A DNA stretch of 64,000 nt from Parvivirga hydrogeniphila (GTDB lineage: Bacteria > Actinomycetota > Coriobacteriia > Anaerosomatales > Anaerosomataceae). The stretch lies in assembly GCF_023371205.1 (NCBI RefSeq), contig NZ_JAMCCO010000001.1, positions 926,662 to 990,661 on the forward strand. Reading direction: 5' to 3'. How positions within the stretch are numbered: the stretch's first letter is position 1; every line of letters begins with the position of its first letter. The translations under genes and the position numbers were made by a program. Under the pieces are notes generated by a model that saw only the letters and a list, made by a program, of their open reading frames with translations, was not told the DNA's origin and did not search any database. Below, piece after piece: positions 5,194-50,758 of the stretch.

Positions 5194-8100
5194 GTGAGAC
5201 CTGCGATTCTGAGCCGAGACAGCCTTGCTGCGAGGTATACGCGCATCGCCGCAGCGCTTGCGCTTGCTACGACGTTGCTGCTTGGTGCGACGGCCGCTCT
5301 CGGCGTGTACCGGGTGATGAAATCGGAGCAGGCGGCGCGCGTTGGTGCGTATCGGGACATCCTGCGCCTGGAAGCGGCGTCACATCTGCAGACGGCGTAC
5401 CGGCTCGCGCGGGCGCTGGCTGATCGAAGCGAGGTAGCCGCTGGCGCCGCTCCGCAGGCGAAGCTCGCGCTTGGCGTAGCGCTCCTCGACAACGGGACGT
5501 ATCTCTCCCATCTGGCTCTCGCTGAGACTTCAGGGACCGTGATAGCGGCGTATCCAGCGACCGGTACGCCGGCGCCGTCTGCCATCGCATCGTGGTCGGA
5601 GCGCCTCGCCGCAGCAGGGAGCAGGAGCGAGTGGCTCGTCGACGAGTCCGGGTTGAGGGTCGTGTGCTGGTCGGGATCTTCCGGAAGCGCCGGTCGCGTG
5701 CTCATCGCGCAGGTCGCAACGGATCGTATACAGAGCACCTTGGAGCAGATCGCGGCAACGGCGCGCTCGCCCGTGGCATTCATCCGAGACGGAAACGGTC
5801 GCATCATCTTCTGGGCGGGCTCCCTCGCGGGTCTCGAAGATGCCGAATTCAAGATCGAGAAGGTCGACGATTCGAACGATGCGCGAGTGACAGCCACATC
5901 TGCGTCACGCGGCCGCATGGAGGGGTACCTGGGCCGTGTCGCAGGCGTGCCCGGCCTGGCGTGGGACGTCGTGGTGTTGGAGCCTTCTGGCGCCGCGATG
6001 AGCGAGACGTGGAGCGCCCTGCGGCCGGCCATCATCGTGTACGTGGGGGTCTTGGTCCTCGTCGTCGTGGTCGCTGCGACCGCCTTCTCGTGGCTCGTCA
6101 GGCCACTGCGTGCGCTGGAATCGCGCGCTCGCGCTGCAGCGCAGGGCGCGGTCCTGGACCCCGTCGCTGTCGACCGCGGAGACGAGGTCGGTCGTCTGCT
6201 GGAGTCGTTCAACCTCGTCGCGATGCGGCTGAACCGTCTCCAGGAGTCGGCTCGGGTGCTCGCGCGGACAGAGGAGCCGCGCGAGGTCGCGGAGAACGTT
6301 GCGCGCGCAGTCATACACCTCCTCGGAGCATGTGACGTGGCGGTGCTGCTTGCAGACGCTGAGGGCGATGCATCGAGCTCCATGAGAGTTGCTGCCTATC
6401 GCGGGCATACTGGCCAGGAGGACGGGTCGCTGCTCGAGTTCGAGTCCACGGCGTTGCCGGATATGTCGGATGCTCGTGATGCGAGGGTCATCGAGGGCGG
6501 GCTGGATGCGCTGTTCGGCGGCGAGCGTTCGGCCGAGGCGGATGGGTCTGTGACGCTCGCGGTGCCGTTGCGGGCCTCGGGAGGAGCCGTCGGCGTGCTC
6601 GCCGTCTCGCGGACGCGTGAGCGGCCGTTCTCTGCGGCCGAGATAGAGCTGGTGAGCTCGTTCGCGTCGCAGGCCGCTCTTGCTCTGGAGAAGGCGCGCC
6701 TTTTCGAACGGGAGCGGCGGGCGCGGGTCGAGGCGGAGGCTTTGCAGCAAGCCGCTCAGATGCTCGTAGAGGAGCCCGACCTCGCGTCCGCCCTCGAGAA
6801 GGTGGCGACCTGCCAAGCGGTGTCGCTCGGGATGCGCTGGTCGAGCGCCTGGCTTGACGAGCGTCTGCGGGAGGAAGATGGACAGGAGCAGCGCTGTGAC
6901 TCGATCGCGGACCTCGTCGAGCTCATCGAGCAGCGTTTGTCAGGAGAAGATATCGCAGGGCTCGCTTCCGGCGTGTTCGTCTTGCGTTCGGACGACGGTG
7001 ACGAGCGCATCACCGCGTGGTTGCAACGCCAGCCCCTCGCTACGGCCCTCGTCTCGTATGCTGCGCTCGACGGCCATCTCATGGGGATGGTTGTGACGGG
7101 CACGCCGGACCACTCATTCGTGGTGGATGAGCGATGCATGCGTATCGCGGGGACTATCGGCAAGGAGGCCGCGCTGGCCGTTGAGCGCGTCCGGCTGTTC
7201 AAGGAGGCGAAAGACCGCGCGACAAGCCTCGAGACGGTGTTCCGCGTCTCACAGGTCGTGTCTTCCTCGCTGAAAGTGAACGTCGTCTTGAGCCGGGTCC
7301 TCGACGTCGTGCAGAAGATCTTCAATGCCGACACCGTGATGCTCATGAGGCGGAACGAGGACCGGCGTGTGCTGGAAGTCTCGATGGCGCGCGGCGTGCT
7401 CGACCAAGTGATGCTCGACCACACGTGCCGGGCCGATGAGGACCTGCCTGGTGCCGTGCTGCAGACCCAGCAGGTCATGCTCGTGTCACGCCTCGAGGAC
7501 ATCGGCACGGCCTTCTCGCGCGCGGCGCTGAAGAGGGGGCTGCATTCGGCGTTGCTGGTGCCGCTTGTGGCTCGCGGGAAGGCCATCGGGGTGCTGGTGA
7601 CGCTTGGCGCGCAGCCCGGCAAGTTCGGTAAGGCCGACGCGGATCTGCTGAGCACGTTCGCCTCCCACGCCGCGCTTGCCATCGACACCGCCGAGCTGTT
7701 CGCCCGCGAGCACGAGGTATCGCACGTGCTGCAGTCGAGCATCCTCCCGGATCGGCTTCCGCGCTACGACGGCCTCGATCTCGGCGCGGCGTATGTGCCT
7801 GCTGAGGGGATCGCCCGAATCGGCGGTGACTACTACGACGTGTTCGCTGCACCTGACGGGCGCGTGGCGTTCGTCATCGCGGACGTGTGCGGCAAAGGCG
7901 TCGAGGCAGCGACGAAGACATCCATGATCCGGTTCATGGTGCGCGGGATGGTGGCGGCGGGCGCGGGTCCGAAGGAGATCCTTGAGGCGCTGAACGAGAC
8001 GGTTCACGCAAGCGGCGATGCGAACGACATATTCACGATCTGGCTCGGCATGCTGGACCTTCGCACCGGGACGCTCTTGTGGGCGGACGGAGGCCATCCG

Positions 8101-39676: not shown

Positions 39677-39744
39677 GGCGAAGGTTAAGGATACCCGCAC
39701 CCGTATGAACCACGATGACACACGGAAGGAAGGAAGCGACAGGC

Positions 39745-42700
39745 ATGTCAGCGATCCCTGAACAGTTCGAACGGGCGCTCCGGGAGATCTTCGGGCCCCG
39801 CATGAGCACCGACCGTGTGGAGCGCAAGCTCTACTCTGCCGACATCGGGTCGATGCCCAAGCTCGTCAAGCCGCTCATGCCGACCGGCGTGGCCGGCGCC
39901 GTCGTCAGGCCGAAGAGCGAGGAGCAGGTCGTCGCTGTCGTGCGCCTCGCGCGAGAGCACGGCGTGCCGATCGTCCCGCGAGGCATGTCCACCTCAGGAT
40001 ACGGCGGCGTGCTGCCTGTGCCAGGGGCCGTGGTCGTCGACATGTCCGGTATGAGCAGAGTCCTCGAAGTCGATGAGGAAGCGAAGACGGTCCGCATCGA
40101 GGCCGGAATCATCTGGGAGCAGCTGCAAAGAGAGCTTGCGAAGCGCGGGCTCGACCTCGTGATGTACCCCTCGTCGCTCCCGTCCTCGACGGCGGCAGGA
40201 TGGCTTGCGCAAGGCGGCGCGGGCTTCGGTTCGTTCGAGCGTGGCTGGTTCAAGGACAACGTGATCTCGGCCCGCGTGGTGTGGCCCGACGGTTCTGTGA
40301 GCGAGGTGTCCGGCGAGAAGCTGCAGACGCTCGTCGCTGATGCCGAGGGCATCACCGGCATCATCACCGAGCTCACGATCCCGGTGCGCGACCTCGAGCC
40401 GGAGGTGCACCGGTTGATCGCGTTCCCGGACGCGGGGTCGCTCGCTGCGGCGCTCAAGGACATCTCTGTGCAGCGCCTGCCCATCTGGTCGATCACCTTC
40501 ATCAACCCCGAGTCGGTCCGCATGAAGAAGCGGCTGCCGCATCGGCATGGCCACCCCTACGAGATGGCGCACCTCGGATTCGAGCCGGAACTACCCGAGG
40601 CGTACATCGCTGTCATCGCGTACCCGGAGTCCCGGCGCGGCGCCGTCGACGCCGCGTTGGAGGCGATCGCCCGGGCGCACGGCGGCACTGAGCTCGACGC
40701 AGAGACGGCAGAGCACGAGTGGGAGCAGCGGTTCGCTCCGATGCGGCTGAAGCGCATCGGCCCGTCCATCGTCCCGACCGAGGTCGTGGTGCCGCTCGGC
40801 GAGCTGCCACAGGTCCTCTCCGAGATCGACCGCGCCCTGAAGCAGCCGTTCGTGCTCGAAGGCATGGTGTCGAAGGGCGACAAGGTCGTCCTGCTCGGCT
40901 TCATCCCGCACGACGAGCGGTCGCTCGCGTTCAACCTCGCCTTCGCGCTCGCGCTCGTCGTCATCAAGATCGCGAAGAAGCACGGCGGCGGTGCGTACTC
41001 CACCGGCGTGTTCTTCCGCCAGGAAGCCAGAAGCGTGCTCGGCGAACAGAAGCTTCAAGCGCTCGCTTCGTTCAAGCGCGAGAACGACCCCAAGGGCGTG
41101 CTGAACCCCAAGAAGATCCTGGGCACGGGCGCGGTGAACGCGCTGATGAAGTTCGCGCTTGCCTTCGAGCCCATCGTCCGACCGATCGCGAACGCCGCTC
41201 GCCCGCCGAAGGGCGACCCTGTCGGTACGAAGGAGCGGCGGGGCGTTCCGGCAGACGTCGCGTACTACGCGTATTCCTGTGCGCAGTGCGGCTACTGCGT
41301 CCCGACGTGCGAGGAGTACTCGGTGCGAGGGTGGATGAGCCACTCGCCGCGCGGCAAGTACCTTTACCTGCGCGAAGTCATCGAGGGCCGTGAGAAGTTC
41401 GACCAGGCGATGGTCGACAAGTTCCTCGTGTGCACGACCTGCGAGGTCTGCAACACGCGCTGCCAGCTCCAGCTGCCCGTGGAGCACTCGTGGATGGAGA
41501 TGCGAGGCAAGCTCATCCACGACGAAGGCCGCATGACCTTCCCGCCGTTCGAGATGATGGCGGCCGCGCTGCGCGGCCAGTTGAACATCTGGGCCGGCAA
41601 GCGCGAGAAGCGCGCAGACTGGGTGCCTGAGCACATCAGGCCAAAGATCAAGGACAAGGCGGACGTCCTCTACTTCGCTGGATGCACGGCAAGCTACGTG
41701 AACACCGACGTCGCCAAGGCGACCGTCGAGCTCCTCGACCGCTCGGGCGTGGAGTTCACCTACATGGGGACGGACGAAGCGTGCTGCGGCATCCCGATGA
41801 AGGTCGCTGGCAAGTGGGACGTGTTCGAGGAGATCTACGAGCACAACGTCGCCGAGGCCCGGAAGCGGGGGGCCAAGACGATCGTCACCTCGTGTCCTGC
41901 GTGCGGTCTCGTGTGGAAGGAGTTCTACGCGAACCTCGCGGCGGAACGCGGGGAGACCTATGAGTTCGAGGTCAAGCACTACTCCGAGCTCGTGGCAGAG
42001 GCCATCAAAGAGGGGACGATCGAGTTCGATCGCCCCATCGAGAAGCGGCTGACGTTCCACGATTCGTGCCACATGGGCCGTGCGCAAGGCGTGTACGACC
42101 CGCCGCGCGAGATGCTCAAGGCCATCCCGGGCGTCGAGTTCGTGGAGATGGAGCACAACCGCGAGGAAGGGCTGTGCTGCGGCTCGGTGCTCACGCTCAT
42201 CGGCGAGACGCCGGTCGCGCCCGAGCTCGGCAAGATGCGCCTCGACGAGGCCATCGACGTCGGAGCCGACGCGGTGGTCGCCCTGTGCCCGTGCTGCCAG
42301 GTCCAGCTCCGCGACTCGTCGGAGAAGAAGGAGCTCGGCATGCCGGTGGTCGACCTCGCCCACGTGGCGGCCGAAGCGCTCGGCATCGAGATCCCTGACC
42401 CGACGGCGTACTCCATGGAGATGTGGGGCTACTTCGAGAAGTTCATCTACCTCATGAAGCCCGAGGTCGTGGCAGACATCATGGTCGCGATCCTTCCCGA
42501 CATGATGAAGGCGATGCCTGCAGGCATGGTCCCGATGATGAAGGTCATGCGTTCGGTTCCCGGCGGGCTCGGCCTCATGGGCGCGATGATGCCGAAGATG
42601 ATGCCTGCGATGGTCCCATCGATGATGCCGAAGGTCATGCCTGCGCTGCTTGACGAGGTCTCGCGTCGCGTCGGCCCGCTCCCACAGGACATGAACGACC

Positions 42701-42813
42701 TGATGCCCGACCTGCTGCCGAAGACGTTCGATGCGCTGCTGCCCAACCTGCTGCCGCTGGTGATCCCGCACCTCATGCCGGGGATGCTCGACTACATCAA
42801 GGACGAGCTCTAG
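39745..42813 (+). CDS. FAD-linked oxidoreductase fused to Fe-S and CCG domains, with Met-rich C-terminal tail
   Basis: 1022 residues. An FAD-binding GlcD-type domain (about 40-215; VPRGMSTSGYGG) and FAD-oxidase C domain (about 215-470) precede two [4Fe-4S] motifs (CAQCGYCVPTC near 512, CTTCEVCNTRC near 563) and two HdrB-like CCG motifs (ACCGIP near 678, LCCGSV near 810). It resembles D-lactate/glycolate or related 2-hydroxyacid dehydrogenases that feed electrons to quinone or HdrD-like partners; the substrate is not evident. The last 120 residues are rich in MP/MMP repeats (about 22 Met). ATG 39745 has GGAAGGAAG upstream. A strong terminator follows. Confidence 0.85.
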   Translation: MSAIPEQFERALREIFGPRMSTDRVERKLYSADIGSMPKLVKPLMPTGVAGAVVRPKSEEQVVAVVRLAREHGVPIVPRGMSTSGYGGVLPVPGAVVVDMSGMSRVLEVDEEAKTVRIEAGIIWEQLQRELAKRGLDLVMYPSSLPSSTAAGWLAQGGAGFGSFERGWFKDNVISARVVWPDGSVSEVSGEKLQTLVADAEGITGIITELTIPVRDLEPEVHRLIAFPDAGSLAAALKDISVQRLPIWSITFINPESVRMKKRLPHRHGHPYEMAHLGFEPELPEAYIAVIAYPESRRGAVDAALEAIARAHGGTELDAETAEHEWEQRFAPMRLKRIGPSIVPTEVVVPLGELPQVLSEIDRALKQPFVLEGMVSKGDKVVLLGFIPHDERSLAFNLAFALALVVIKIAKKHGGGAYSTGVFFRQEARSVLGEQKLQALASFKRENDPKGVLNPKKILGTGAVNALMKFALAFEPIVRPIANAARPPKGDPVGTKERRGVPADVAYYAYSCAQCGYCVPTCEEYSVRGWMSHSPRGKYLYLREVIEGREKFDQAMVDKFLVCTTCEVCNTRCQLQLPVEHSWMEMRGKLIHDEGRMTFPPFEMMAAALRGQLNIWAGKREKRADWVPEHIRPKIKDKADVLYFAGCTASYVNTDVAKATVELLDRSGVEFTYMGTDEACCGIPMKVAGKWDVFEEIYEHNVAEARKRGAKTIVTSCPACGLVWKEFYANLAAERGETYEFEVKHYSELVAEAIKEGTIEFDRPIEKRLTFHDSCHMGRAQGVYDPPREMLKAIPGVEFVEMEHNREEGLCCGSVLTLIGETPVAPELGKMRLDEAIDVGADAVVALCPCCQVQLRDSSEKKELGMPVVDLAHVAAEALGIEIPDPTAYSMEMWGYFEKFIYLMKPEVVADIMVAILPDMMKAMPAGMVPMMKVMRSVPGGLGLMGAMMPKMMPAMVPSMMPKVMPALLDEVSRRVGPLPQDMNDLMPDLLPKTFDALLPNLLPLVIPHLMPGMLDYIKDEL

Positions 42814-45199: not shown

Positions 45200-45343
45200 G
45201 TGCGCTCCTCTCGTGGTCGGACCATGATACCGCGTGCGGATAGTAGGATCGCGCCGACGACTGCGGGTTCAGCCGCTGCGCCGGAATGCCGATACTCCGG
45301 CACGTGTCCTTGAGTCGGCTTGTCTGGAGGAAAGGGAACCAGA

Positions 45344-47008
<1,665 letters not shown>

Positions 47009-47079: not shown

Positions 47080-47547
47080 ATGGACACCGTCGTCGTCCGC
47101 TGGACTGCGAACCGCCAGTTCGTCGGCTGGGATTCTGAAGGCCACACCGTCGTGATGGACGCCACGCCTGCGTCTTCCGGCGAGGGCGCCGGCATGCGGC
47201 CGCTGCAGGTCTTCCTGTGCGGGCTCGCGGGATGCACGGGCATGGACGTCGTCTCGATACTCGAGAAGAAGCGGCAGGACGTCCGGGGCGTCGAGATCGT
47301 GGTCGAGGGCACGCAGCGGGAAGACGAGTACCCGAAGATCTACGTCGACGTCCACCTCCACTACCGCGTGACAGGCTATGCGGTGTCGCCCGCTGCCGTG
47401 GAGCGCGCGATCGAGCTGTCGGAGCACAAGTACTGCTCCGTTGGCGGGATGCTTGGTCCCCAGGTCACCGTGCGCACGTCGTTCGAGGTCGTCGAAGCGG
47501 CACCACCCGGCACGCCGAGCATCGATCGGAGGGGGCAGCGCGCGTGA
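47080..47547 (+). CDS. OsmC family protein
   Basis: 155 residues. The OsmC fold shows in GMRPLQVFLCGLAGCTGMDVVSIL with the first redox Cys region and EHKYCSVGGML with the second Cys. Members reduce organic hydroperoxides with thiols. This YhfA-like subgroup is less characterised. ATG 47080 has GGAGGTG upstream. Its stop overlaps the glycosyltransferase GTG by 4 nt, making it the first of four genes that end with a BshC-like protein. Upstream, GGGTAC-N3-GGGTAT lies at 47027-47041, an imperfect, direct-repeat relative of the operator elsewhere. Confidence 0.88.
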   Translation: MDTVVVRWTANRQFVGWDSEGHTVVMDATPASSGEGAGMRPLQVFLCGLAGCTGMDVVSILEKKRQDVRGVEIVVEGTQREDEYPKIYVDVHLHYRVTGYAVSPAAVERAIELSEHKYCSVGGMLGPQVTVRTSFEVVEAAPPGTPSIDRRGQRA

Positions 47548-48272
47548 CAGACGCGCTCGTCCTTCCCGTCTACAACGAAGCGAGGACGGTCGAAGCGGTG
47601 CTGTCGGCGGTTCGCGAGGTGTTCGATGGCGTCGTGGTCGTCGTCGATGACGGCTCGACGGACGACACGCCGCGGATCGTGAACGCGGTGCCCGGCGTCG
47701 TGACGCTCTGTCATGAGGAGAACCGCGGGTACGGCCGTTCGCTTATCGATGGGTTTGAGGCAGCGTTCACGGTCGGCGCCGACCGGATCGTCACGATGGA
47801 CTGCGACGGGCAGCACGAGCCCGCGCACATACCTGCGTTCTTGGCGGCGCTTGAACGCGCGGACATCGTGTCGGGCAGCCGGTACCTGCCCGAGAGCGGC
47901 GCTGTCGGCGCGACGCCGCCGGACAGGATGCGCGTGAACGCTGCCGTCACGAAGGCGATCAACCGCGTCACGCGCTGGGGCATCACCGACGCGTTCTGCG
48001 GCTTCAAGGCGTATCGCGCCGCCTCGCTTAGACGGCTTCGGCTGACAGAGGACGGCTACGCGATGCCGATCCAGTTGTGGGCGGAAGCGTGGAAGGCGGG
48101 GCTTTCGGTGTGCGAGATCGCGATCGAACGCATCTACTGCGATGCGGACCGGAGCTTCGGAGCCGACCTTGACGATCCCGGGCGGCGTCTTGCGTACTAC
48201 CTCTCGGTATGGGAGAACGCGCTCAAGGGCACCGTCGGCGGTGGCTCGGGAAAGGAACATACGCATGGCTGA
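47544..48272 (+). CDS. Family 2 glycosyltransferase
   Basis: 242 residues of the DPM1/polyprenyl-phosphate glycosyltransferase type: LVLPVYNEARTVEAVL at the N-terminus, nucleotide site VVVDDGSTDDTP near 35, metal site TMDCDGQHEP near 88 and GSRYLPESG near 112. No C-terminal membrane anchor is visible. It would move a sugar from an NDP-sugar to a lipid or small acceptor. GTG 47544 follows GGAGGGGG. It sits between OsmC and a PIG-L deacetylase with overlaps of 4 and 8 nt, so a common pathway with the deacetylase is plausible. Confidence 0.85.
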   Translation: MTDALVLPVYNEARTVEAVLSAVREVFDGVVVVVDDGSTDDTPRIVNAVPGVVTLCHEENRGYGRSLIDGFEAAFTVGADRIVTMDCDGQHEPAHIPAFLAALERADIVSGSRYLPESGAVGATPPDRMRVNAAVTKAINRVTRWGITDAFCGFKAYRAASLRRLRLTEDGYAMPIQLWAEAWKAGLSVCEIAIERIYCDADRSFGADLDDPGRRLAYYLSVWENALKGTVGGGSGKEHTHG

Positions 48273-48948
48273 GGTCGTGTGCATCGGGGCGCATCCCGAC
48301 GACGTCGAAATCGGTATGGGCGCGACGGTCGCGCAGATGGTCCGCGAGGGGGTCAGCGTGGCCATCGTCGACCTGACCGACGGCGAGCCGACCCCCTTCG
48401 GGACGCCGGAGCGGCGTGCAACGGAAGCCGCTGAGGCGGCGCAGGCGCTCGGCGTCGAACGCGTGACCCTCGGCCTTCCGAACCGGTCGCTCTCCGACAC
48501 CCTGGAGGCGCGGCGCGCTCTCGCAGAGGTGCTCCGGGCGCTCAAGCCGCGCATCGTCGTGGGTCCGTATCCGCGCGACGCGCACCCGGATCACGTCGCC
48601 GCCTCCGCGCTCGCGATTGCCGGCCGGTTCTACGCGAAGCTGAGCAAGTCCGGGCTTGCCGGCGAGCCGCACTATCCAGCGCGCGTCTACCAGTTCGCCG
48701 CCGTGCACAGCGCGCTTGCGCTCACGCCGTCCTTCGTCGTTCCGGTGGACGAGGAGGCCATAGCAGCCAAACGTGCCGCGCTTCTCGCGTACCGGTCGCA
48801 GTTCGTCGACAACCCCGCGAACGCCGGGCTCATCGAGCGCGTGGAGCTGCAGACGAGGTACTGGGGATCGCTGGTCGGTGCACCTGGAGGCGAGCCGTTC
48901 TTTGCGACAGAGACGCTCGCCGTCCCGTCGCTCACGTCGCTGCTGTAG
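48265..48948 (+). CDS. PIG-L/LmbE family N-acetylglucosamine deacetylase (BshB-like)
   Basis: 227 residues with the zinc-binding motifs of the family: GAHPDDVEIG near the N-terminus and RDAHPDHVAAS near 110. Members deacetylate GlcNAc conjugates, e.g. GlcNAc-malate in bacillithiol (BshB) or GlcNAc-inositol in mycothiol (MshB) synthesis. It overlaps the glycosyltransferase by 8 nt and is 3 nt before a BshC-like gene, a pairing that favours a bacillithiol-type role (inference). ATG 48265 has AAAGGAA upstream. Confidence 0.88.
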   Translation: MAEVVCIGAHPDDVEIGMGATVAQMVREGVSVAIVDLTDGEPTPFGTPERRATEAAEAAQALGVERVTLGLPNRSLSDTLEARRALAEVLRALKPRIVVGPYPRDAHPDHVAASALAIAGRFYAKLSKSGLAGEPHYPARVYQFAAVHSALALTPSFVVPVDEEAIAAKRAALLAYRSQFVDNPANAGLIERVELQTRYWGSLVGAPGGEPFFATETLAVPSLTSLL

Positions 48949-48951
48949 GCC

Positions 48952-50508
48952 ATGCGACGGACGCACGCCATACCGTGCGGCAACGGCGAGGCGCTCATCG
49001 AGCCACCGTTCGACGAGTGGGAAGGGCTTGTGCGGAGAACGGCGGCGGCTGCAGCCGTGTGGGACGTCGAAGTGGGCGGCATGCCGCTGTCGGCGTTGCG
49101 GTCCGATGCGCGCGCAGACGCCCTGCGGCTCGCCGGGGAGACGTGTCGCCGGCTCGGCATCGCCTTCGAGGTCCGCGATTCGTCGGCCCCTATCGTGATG
49201 ACCGGCCATCAGCCTGAGCTGTTCCATCCGGGGGTGTGGTCGAAGCACTTCGCCATCCAGAAGTTCGCCGACCAGCACGAAGCGACTCCGCTCGATCTCG
49301 TGGTGGACTCCGACCGCTGCGGCCGCGTCTCGTTGCGCGTGCCCTGCGTACGGGAGCGGGTGCGACGGCACGACGTCGTGCTCGCAGACGGCGGCGATGC
49401 CTGCTACGGCTGTGTCCCTGCGCCCAGCCCAGAGGCGATCGAGCGGTTCGCGAACGAGGCCCTCGCGTGCGCGAAGACGCTCCCGGGCGACGGGCCGTAC
49501 GAACGCGTGCAGCGATTCGTCGGTTGCCTGAACGATGCGGTACCGCGGTCGCGTACGATCGCCGAGGCAGTCGTCGTTGCGCGAAGGTCGTATGAGACAC
49601 CGGCCGTGAGCCGGTACGGAGAAGTCTTCGTCACCGACCAGGCGGCCGCTTCGAGCTTCCTTCGGTTCGCGGCGCACCTCGTACGCGACGCCCAGCGTTT
49701 CACCACGGTGTTCAACGACGAGGTCCGGGCCTATCGTGCGCGCAGGCGCGTGCGCTCGGCCGCGCACCCGTTCCCCGAGCTCTCGGTCGCAGGCGGGATC
49801 GCCGAAGTCCCCCTCTGGGTGCTCGTGGGCGGCGTGAGGCGGCGCGTGGCGTTCGAGCAGGCCACGGGGAGCATCCACGTCGAGGACCATGGCGTCATCG
49901 AAGCAGGCGTGGACGACGTCAGCGTGGTCCGTGCGCTAGAAGCGTCGGGTCTGCGGATTCTTCCGCGAGCAGTGGCCCTCACGATGTTCGAGCGCTTGTG
50001 CGTGGCAGACCTCTTCGTCCACGGCGTGGGCGGCAGCAGGTACGAGTTCATCACCGACCGCGTCATCGAGCGTTGGTTGGGCGTCGCTGCTCCACCGTAC
50101 GCCGTCGTCTCGCTCACGATGCGCTTGCCAGTCGGTTCTGCCTCGGCCATCGACGAGCGCATCGCTGAGCTCAGGCGCACGCTGCACGTGGCCAAGCACA
50201 ACCCGGACAAGCTCCTTGACATGGCGCTGGCCGATCCTGGAGAGCGTGCGAGGGCGGATGCGTACGTCCAGGAGAAGCGGGATCTCATCGCTCGGGCATC
50301 CGAGCCAGGCGCAGACAAGCGTGCCGTGGGCCAGGCGATCCGCGCGGTGAATGCTCGCCTTGAAGCAGCGATCCGCCCATTCGTGGCCGCCGTCGAGGAG
50401 AAGATCCAACGTCTTGAGTGTGAGCGCGGCGCGCACGAGGCGCTCTCGGACCGGGAGTGCTCCTTCCCGCTGTTCGACCCGCTCGACGTCATGGACGCCG
50501 TGGGCTAG
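48952..50508 (+). CDS. BshC-like protein (putative cysteine ligase of a bacillithiol-type thiol)
   Basis: 518 residues, near BshC length. MTGHQPELFHPGVWSKHFAI (about 80-100) parallels the BshC FTGQQ motif, and HGVGGSRYEFITDRVIERW near 362 resembles the matching C-terminal region. A charged helical segment (about 400-490) is like the BshC coiled coil. BshC adds cysteine to glucosaminyl-malate. Here similarity is recognisable but divergent. It follows the PIG-L deacetylase by 3 nt. A BshA-type (GT4) glycosyltransferase is not present locally. If the call holds, an actinobacterium would use a bacillithiol-like thiol rather than mycothiol. Confidence 0.62.
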   Translation: MRRTHAIPCGNGEALIEPPFDEWEGLVRRTAAAAAVWDVEVGGMPLSALRSDARADALRLAGETCRRLGIAFEVRDSSAPIVMTGHQPELFHPGVWSKHFAIQKFADQHEATPLDLVVDSDRCGRVSLRVPCVRERVRRHDVVLADGGDACYGCVPAPSPEAIERFANEALACAKTLPGDGPYERVQRFVGCLNDAVPRSRTIAEAVVVARRSYETPAVSRYGEVFVTDQAAASSFLRFAAHLVRDAQRFTTVFNDEVRAYRARRRVRSAAHPFPELSVAGGIAEVPLWVLVGGVRRRVAFEQATGSIHVEDHGVIEAGVDDVSVVRALEASGLRILPRAVALTMFERLCVADLFVHGVGGSRYEFITDRVIERWLGVAAPPYAVVSLTMRLPVGSASAIDERIAELRRTLHVAKHNPDKLLDMALADPGERARADAYVQEKRDLIARASEPGADKRAVGQAIRAVNARLEAAIRPFVAAVEEKIQRLECERGAHEALSDRECSFPLFDPLDVMDAVG

Positions 50509-50581
50509 CGTCGGAGCGCGGGCGGTGTATCATGTGCGTACCGTCTCGGCGGTAGTGTCGGTATGGAGAAAGGATCGTGAC

Positions 50582-50758
50582 ATGGGCAAGCCTGTCGTCA
50601 ATCCGGACCTGTGCACGGCGTGCGGCATCTGCGTGGACGAGTGCCCGACGAGCGCCCTCGACCTCGAGGACACCGCTGTGCTCGCTCGGCCGGACGACTG
50701 CACGGAGTGCGGCACCTGCGAGTCCGTGTGTCCGAACGAAGCGATCAAGCTCTCGTAG
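50582..50758 (+). CDS. 2[4Fe-4S] bacterial-type ferredoxin
   Basis: 58 residues with two clusters: CTACGICVDECP and CTECGTCESVCP, separated by the usual spacing. It is a small soluble low-potential electron carrier, a natural partner of Rnf and other anaerobic oxidoreductases. ATG 50582 has AAAGGA upstream. TATCAT at 50528-50533 may be its -10 box. A hairpin lies just downstream, before the convergent plsY gene. Confidence 0.95.
   Translation: MGKPVVNPDLCTACGICVDECPTSALDLEDTAVLARPDDCTECGTCESVCPNEAIKLS

Follow-up and report, generated by a model that had tools for sequence, protein, structure and literature searches.

Cells depend on low-molecular-weight thiols to set their redox state. The described systems closest to the locus reported here are the bacillithiol pathway, with BshA (a GT4 enzyme), BshB1 and BshC, and the mycothiol pathway, with MshA, MshB and MshC. 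Canonical bacillithiol surveys, in the sections that describe their queries, use BshA, BshB and BshC (PMC12719100; PMC6282198). A 2015 review states that no in vitro activity of BshC had been demonstrated by then and that its mechanism was unknown (PMC4360819). In a 64,000-nucleotide (nt) stretch of Parvivirga hydrogeniphila DNA (contig NZ_JAMCCO010000001.1, positions 926,662 to 990,661; hereafter the window), we analysed a module formed by the genes of a GT2 glycosyltransferase, a PIG-L deacetylase and a 518-amino-acid (aa) protein that we call BshC-like. This module looks like a second, previously unrecognised route to a bacillithiol-related glucosamine-cysteine thiol in groups without the usual genes. 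Judging from sequences and structural models, we give a probability of about 0.7 to a parallel bacillithiol-type pathway in which the GT2 enzyme takes the place of BshA and a remote BshC homologue would ligate cysteine.

The initial annotation of the window had described OsmC, GT2, PIG-L and BshC-like genes as one tight operon at 47080-50508, and the frames, their spacing and their Pfam matches agree. All four frames open at these coordinates and are closely packed: the GTG start of GT2 overlaps the OsmC stop, the start of PIG-L overlaps the end of GT2 by 8 nt, and 3 nt separate the PIG-L stop from the 518-aa frame. The OsmC, GT2 and PIG-L proteins exceed their Pfam cut-offs. The operon and the gene that follows it are:

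47080-47547, + strand: OsmC-family protein, 155 aa (PF02566, 59.8 bits), the first operon gene in the order
47544-48272, + strand: GT2 glycosyltransferase, 242 aa (Glycos_transf_2, 84.2 bits; GTG start)
48265-48948, + strand: PIG-L/LmbE deacetylase, 227 aa, BshB1-like (PIG-L, 91.9 bits; ATG start)
48952-50508, + strand: putative remote BshC homologue, 518 aa (AlphaFold2 fold, Foldseek, VIA, hhalign)
50582-50758, + strand: two-cluster 4Fe-4S ferredoxin, 58 aa (Fer4, 57.3 bits, scored on the frame 50351-50758)

The 518-aa protein and BshC

Direct family profiles do not recognise the 518-aa protein: it has no match in Pfam or NCBIfam at E ≤ 1, and the BshC model TIGR03998 (cut-off 265.8) has none at E ≤ 1 in the source genome. 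Read literally, the latter result is the lack of a BshC profile match that the initial annotation had named as refuting its proposal, but this criterion is too blunt, and homology emerges from the fold and from profile-profile comparison. The AlphaFold2 model, built with 21 sequences, has a mean predicted local distance difference test score (pLDDT) of 91.4 and a predicted template modelling score of 0.84. Its top Foldseek match is the BshC of Bacillus subtilis (4wbd, E 3.5e-13), and the runner-up is a class I lysyl-tRNA synthetase (E 5.9e-5). In the VIA comparison, 4wbd reached a Z of 27.6 with 448 of the 518 residues aligned, the next structure a Z of 19.9, and MshC a Z of 9.8-9.9. The domains of the model may be arranged or oriented differently from those of 4wbd, because the root-mean-square deviation is 7.0 over the whole chain.

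We then compared alignments with hhalign, using 31 BshC-like proteins (6 from the order of the source organism and 25 from the 42 outside loci described below) and 18 canonical BshC proteins from 21 BshC-positive Bacillota, with L146, L153 and the fragments of G168 omitted. The score was 48.5, and most of the chain aligns colinearly; the best of 59 column-shuffled BshC alignments scored 22.5 and a reversed alignment 20.8. Nine residues (G85, Q87, K98, D119, D121, R296, G358, G360 and Y364) are the same in the two families and at least 90% conserved in each, being invariant in the 18 canonical proteins and invariant or nearly so in the 31 BshC-like ones. They make up the G-x-Q, K, D-x-D, R, G-x-G and Y positions common to the 518-aa protein and B. 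subtilis BshC. The motif around them differs, reading T-G-H-Q ... H-P-G in the BshC-like family and T-G-Q-Q ... T-G-P in BshC. When the PDB was searched by sequence, using the protein alone or an order-only profile, no relative emerged; the listed endoglucanase, ribosome-inactivating proteins, Cdc37 and helical designs were discarded as chance matches.

Taken together, the modelled fold, the alignment score relative to its controls and the conserved core indicate that the 518-aa protein is a remote BshC homologue. The BshC-like proteins would then form a second, highly divergent BshC family, and the residues common to both families narrow the search for the active site.

Distribution of the module

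We searched 99 genomes of Planctomycetota for BshC-like genes (E ≤ 1e-10) and scanned 80 of them, namely all 16 positives and 64 of the 83 negatives, for BshB1, BshC and BshA. Four of the 16 positives rest on weak or partial matches. Canonical BshC (E ≤ 1e-10) is found in none of the 16 genomes with BshC-like genes, against 39 of the 64 others. At E ≤ 1e-40, BshB1 accompanies BshC-like in 14 of 16 genomes and BshC in 38 of 39, and is absent from all 25 genomes with neither. At this threshold, a BshB1 partner is therefore seen only where BshC or BshC-like is present, and these two never occur together. BshA exceeds its cut-off in 37 of the 39 genomes with BshC, in 0 of the 16 with BshC-like genes and in 0 of the 25 with neither. 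We regard this complementary distribution as the strongest functional evidence for the module, in a phylum where PIG-L is usually unlinked to the BshC-like gene. The same scans revealed canonical bacillithiol genes in about half of the sampled Planctomycetota (BshA over its cut-off in 37 of 80, a BshC match in 39 of 80; G140, G230-G324). These counts contrast with a 2018 paper, in whose relevant section Planctomycetes and Verrucomicrobia are listed without any documented or predicted thiol.

In Bacillota, 80 genomes gave 21 with BshC, 2 with BshC-like genes and no overlap. A wider scan of named genomes for relatives of the 518-aa protein found at least 556, and among the best 80, which we kept, 42 lie outside the order. 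Homologues of both GT2 and PIG-L adjoin the BshC-like gene in 21 of these 42 loci, and GT2 without PIG-L in another 13, bringing GT2 to 34 of 42. By record title, the outside loci belong to Armatimonadota, Planctomycetota, Nitrospinota, Nitrospirota, Verrucomicrobia, Bacillota and 'Terrabacteria ANGP1'; two further Bacillota genomes carry GT2-PIG-L-BshC-like, and Blastopirellula marina DSM 3645 is a cultured carrier, in whose genome BshA, BshC and MshC all stay below their cut-offs. The actinobacterial background named in the initial annotation thus becomes a side issue, the module being common to Planctomycetota, Armatimonadota, Nitrospinota and some Bacillota. Two records have titles that look like mislabelled or mixed bins: L086 (Aeromicrobium sp. 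bin3), which carries the module operon, and L090 (Slackia heliotrinireducens FI88), which carries GT2-BshC-like.

We followed 31 of the 42 outside loci to their genomes (omitting L090, L096, L097, L098, L107, L109, L112, L114, L116, L118 and L125). Across these genomes of several phyla, BshC exceeds its cut-off in none, BshB1 in 27 and BshA in 1. The Bacillota control for BshA and BshB1 consisted of 8 BshC-positive and 8 BshC-negative genomes. None of 51 genomes, drawn from the order and from the module carriers, has MshC over its cut-off (TIGR03447, 485.1), in line with the departure from mycothiol that the initial annotation had proposed; the best match of this model in the source genome (306.0 bits) reads as a cysteinyl-tRNA synthetase.

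Closer to the source organism, the 518-aa protein was found in 65 of the 119 relatives searched: in 65 of 69 from its genus, family and order, which we infer to be Anaerosomatales, and in 0 of 50 others. The run OsmC-GT2-PIG-L-BshC-like-ferredoxin stands in the same place in all 20 order genomes fetched. We did not use this as functional evidence because the whole region is syntenic in these 20 genomes, the block extending from RumA (mostly with Crp) to EF-G. OsmC had been put forward as a thiol-using peroxidase of the pathway. Neither part of this proposal is supported: OsmC adjoins the module only inside the order and lies near none of the 42 outside loci, leading us to reject it as a pathway enzyme, and it scores 16.2 bits against the Ohr model TIGR03561 (cut-off 88.85). 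OsmC probably lies outside the core pathway and may use a thiol in this order. The ferredoxin gene keeps its place in all 20 order loci, a synteny that does not by itself tie it to the pathway. Beyond lineage-specific synteny, no additional neighbour clearly recurs with the module outside the order.

Other features of the window include a PilT-family ATPase (45320-47008; TIGR01420, 491.5 bits) whose N terminus carries a response-regulator receiver domain (60.9 bits); the gene lies directly upstream of the operon and is syntenic across the order. At 39715-42813, a 1032-aa fusion of FAD-binding and iron-sulphur parts, GlcD-GlpC-like by eye, ends in a Met- and Pro-rich tail. ARAGORN called a 95-nt tRNA-Asp at 6135-6229; Rfam shows no tRNA there yet finds the other four, so this is probably a false call.

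The deacetylase and the glycosyltransferase

The PIG-L protein was expected to be BshB1-like, and it passes the BshB1 model TIGR04001 (cut-off 182.5) with 186.3 bits on the longer frame 48142-48948 and 186.6 bits in the genome scan. Among solved proteins, it is closest to Thermus TT1542 (148.9 bits) and to the BshB1 structure 6p2t (122.7 bits). The best solved deacetylase of another kind reaches 63.5 bits and MshB 36 bits; the NCBIfam MshB model gives 46.8 bits for a cut-off of 224.35. We built a tree from the window protein and 44 of 68 PIG-L proteins, omitting repeats of one genome and near relatives. A branch with 100/100 support separates 28 module proteins from 17 canonical ones, in an unrooted tree that does not tell which side is derived. 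Nine PIG-L proteins of Planctomycetes and Scalindua that are unlinked to the BshC-like gene group with the module clade, and nine canonical BshB1 proteins of the same phylum fall apart from them.

The part of a BshB study that concerns the active site names His12, Asp15, His113, Arg53 and His110 as zinc- and substrate-binding residues, with Arg53 and His110 required for N-acetylglucosaminyl-malate (GlcNAc-Mal) (PMC4101496). They correspond to H10, D13, H110, R51 and H107, all invariant in the module PIG-L proteins. The module clade also has invariant residues of its own in 28 of 28 proteins (P42-T43-P44, N73, R74, R121, K125 and H148), and it carries Ala, Ser or Thr at the position of BshB Arg109. 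These features hint at a different aglycone, falling short of proof. The absence of Arg109 was not used as proof of this, because Arg109 is also missing from 9 of the 17 canonical BshB1 proteins.

The GT2 protein is a single GT-A domain of 242 aa (AlphaFold2 pLDDT 90.2). By fold it is closest to ArnC and dolichyl-phosphate mannose synthase (DPMS; Foldseek 9bhc and 5mlz, E 3e-14 to 5e-14), which are also its nearest solved sequences. The small-molecule enzyme glucosyl-3-phosphoglycerate synthase (GpgS) is matched at E 1.5e-12. Since both kinds of fold are near, the class of acceptor is not readable from the structure. The GT-A fold with DDGSTD and DCDGQH motifs of this protein is common to the polyprenyl-phosphate GT2 enzymes (DPMS, ArnC, GtrB) and GpgS. 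The best NCBIfam match, polyprenyl-phospho-GalNAc synthase, scores 89.8 bits where the cut-off is 370, and the protein lies far below every equivalog cut-off. These comparisons favour neither a lipid-phosphate nor a small-acid acceptor.

BshA was sought elsewhere in the source genome, as the initial annotation had advised. The model TIGR03999 (cut-off 273.7) finds none over its cut-off (best 104.6 bits), leaving GT2 where BshA would be expected, and the same holds for 30 of the 31 other module genomes scanned. In the Scalindua genome G134, the BshC-like gene and a module-type BshB1 are present, with GT2 beside neither.

Pathway model and comparison with known thiol pathways

The proposed pathway would proceed in three steps. 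GT2, in the place of BshA, would move N-acetylglucosamine from UDP-N-acetylglucosamine onto a small acceptor. PIG-L, a zinc deacetylase of the BshB1 clade whose family is well supported, would then strip the acetyl group from this presumed substrate to free the glucosamine amine. Finally, the BshC-like protein, in which the fold and the core of BshC are seen, would join an amino acid, most likely cysteine, to the amine. The predicted product is a low-molecular-weight thiol of the type cysteine-glucosamine-aglycone: bacillithiol itself if the acceptor is malate, and a new thiol if it is another small acid or a phosphate. OsmC, and perhaps the ferredoxin, would be local neighbours in the order rather than enzymes of the pathway.

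Several observations weigh against this model. Cysteine, the acceptor and the thiol product are all deduced from sequences and models, and a lipid phosphate could be the GT2 acceptor, given the ArnC and DPMS folds. The HHalign probability between BshC-like and BshC is only 70-77% at about 12% identity, and with the order-only alignment (21 proteins) it was an unconvincing 9%, so that the broader alignment was needed. Neither GT2 nor PIG-L lies beside the BshC-like gene in 8 of the 42 outside loci (Scalindua and kin), and for 6 of the 16 BshC-like Planctomycetota the fetched flanks, up to 1.5 kb long, contain no GT2. In G134, a GT4 enzyme (L194:1501-2703) is just over the BshA cut-off with 282.0 bits, so that in Scalindua the partner of the BshC-like ligase may be a GT4. 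Judged by the curated cut-off, BshB1 occurs in only 9 of the 16 Planctomycetota with BshC-like genes, 37 of the 39 with BshC and none of the 25 with neither, and BshC-like genomes look like all others (9/16 vs 37/64) until BshC is also scanned. Two of the 16 lack BshB1 even at E ≤ 1e-40, including G270, which has only a BshC-like fragment. Fisher tests give p = 5e-6 for the exclusion between BshC and BshC-like and p = 3e-9 for BshB1 with BshC-like against neither, and are descriptive only, as they ignore shared ancestry. The thiol-gene scans were confined to the bacillithiol genes and MshC.

Two outcomes would be compatible with a parallel pathway. One, which we entertain tentatively as a real possibility, is that the module makes a glucosamine-cysteine thiol of a third kind, whose aglycone is neither malate nor inositol. 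If so, many Planctomycetes, anammox-related Scalindua, Nitrospinota, Armatimonadota and Anaerosomatales without a known thiol would have it as their main redox thiol, and it may have escaped recognition because BshC profiles do not see its ligase. The other, possible if somewhat more doubtful, is ordinary bacillithiol: GT2 would be a non-homologous substitute of BshA acting on L-malate, and the BshC-like protein a diverged BshC. A BshB1 over its cut-off and the match of R51 and H107 to the residues needed for GlcNAc-Mal speak for it. The clade-specific PIG-L residues and the BshC-like signature (GHQ...HPG instead of GQQ...TGP) speak against it, as does, weakly given its frequent absence from canonical proteins, the replacement of Arg109.

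Explanations without a thiol fare worse. In an envelope pathway, GT2 would make a polyprenyl-phosphate N-acetyl sugar that PIG-L deacetylates and the BshC-like protein aminoacylates for a surface polymer. The DPMS and ArnC relatives and the best NCBIfam match, far under its cut-off, point this way, but the soluble GpgS fits the short single-domain GT2 about equally, BshB1 and the complementary distribution with BshA and BshC are left unexplained, and no envelope cluster was seen to recur in our comparison of neighbouring genes, which were not systematically annotated. We consider this pathway unlikely. It is slightly less likely still that the amino acid which the BshC-like protein joins to the amino sugar is not cysteine, so that the conjugate would be no thiol. 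The fold does not reveal specificity and the motif around H86 and H92-P93-G94 departs from that of BshC, but the mutual exclusion with canonical BshA and BshC suggests the same physiological class of product. That the gene order reflects mere neighbourhood conservation in one order is very improbable and already largely refuted: synteny from Crp to EF-G makes the order itself uninformative, but GT2-PIG-L-BshC-like recurs in other phyla without the order-specific neighbours and OsmC does not.

A parallel bacillithiol-type pathway, the reading we prefer, offers a concrete genetic prediction for part of the missing-thiol gap, as outlined in the relevant part of Hiras et al., in at least one cultured species. 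Surveys that query with BshA, BshB and BshC would miss the module because such queries do not reach two of its three proteins. In the open-licence literature, judged by listed titles and the openings of abstracts, we found no GT2-based bacillithiol-type pathway, Planctomycete BshC-like family or Coriobacteriia thiol, although subscription journals may hold one.

Compared with the mycothiol pathway, the module would share the general scheme of a glucosamine-cysteine thiol made by a glycosyltransferase, an LmbE deacetylase and, in mycothiol synthesis, a ligase resembling class I synthetases. It differs from it in that none of the 51 genomes scanned has MshC over its cut-off, in a PIG-L far from MshB and in the low VIA Z of its ligase to MshC. 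Differences from the bacillithiol pathway are a GT2 in place of a GT4, a BshC-like protein beyond the reach of TIGR03998 and Pfam, and a deacetylase clade of its own; the module BshC-like gene never occurs with canonical BshC in the 160 genomes of two phyla compared. What the module and BshA-BshB1-BshC have in common is a glycosyltransferase, an LmbE deacetylase over the BshB1 cut-off and a putative ligase with the BshC fold and its conserved core.

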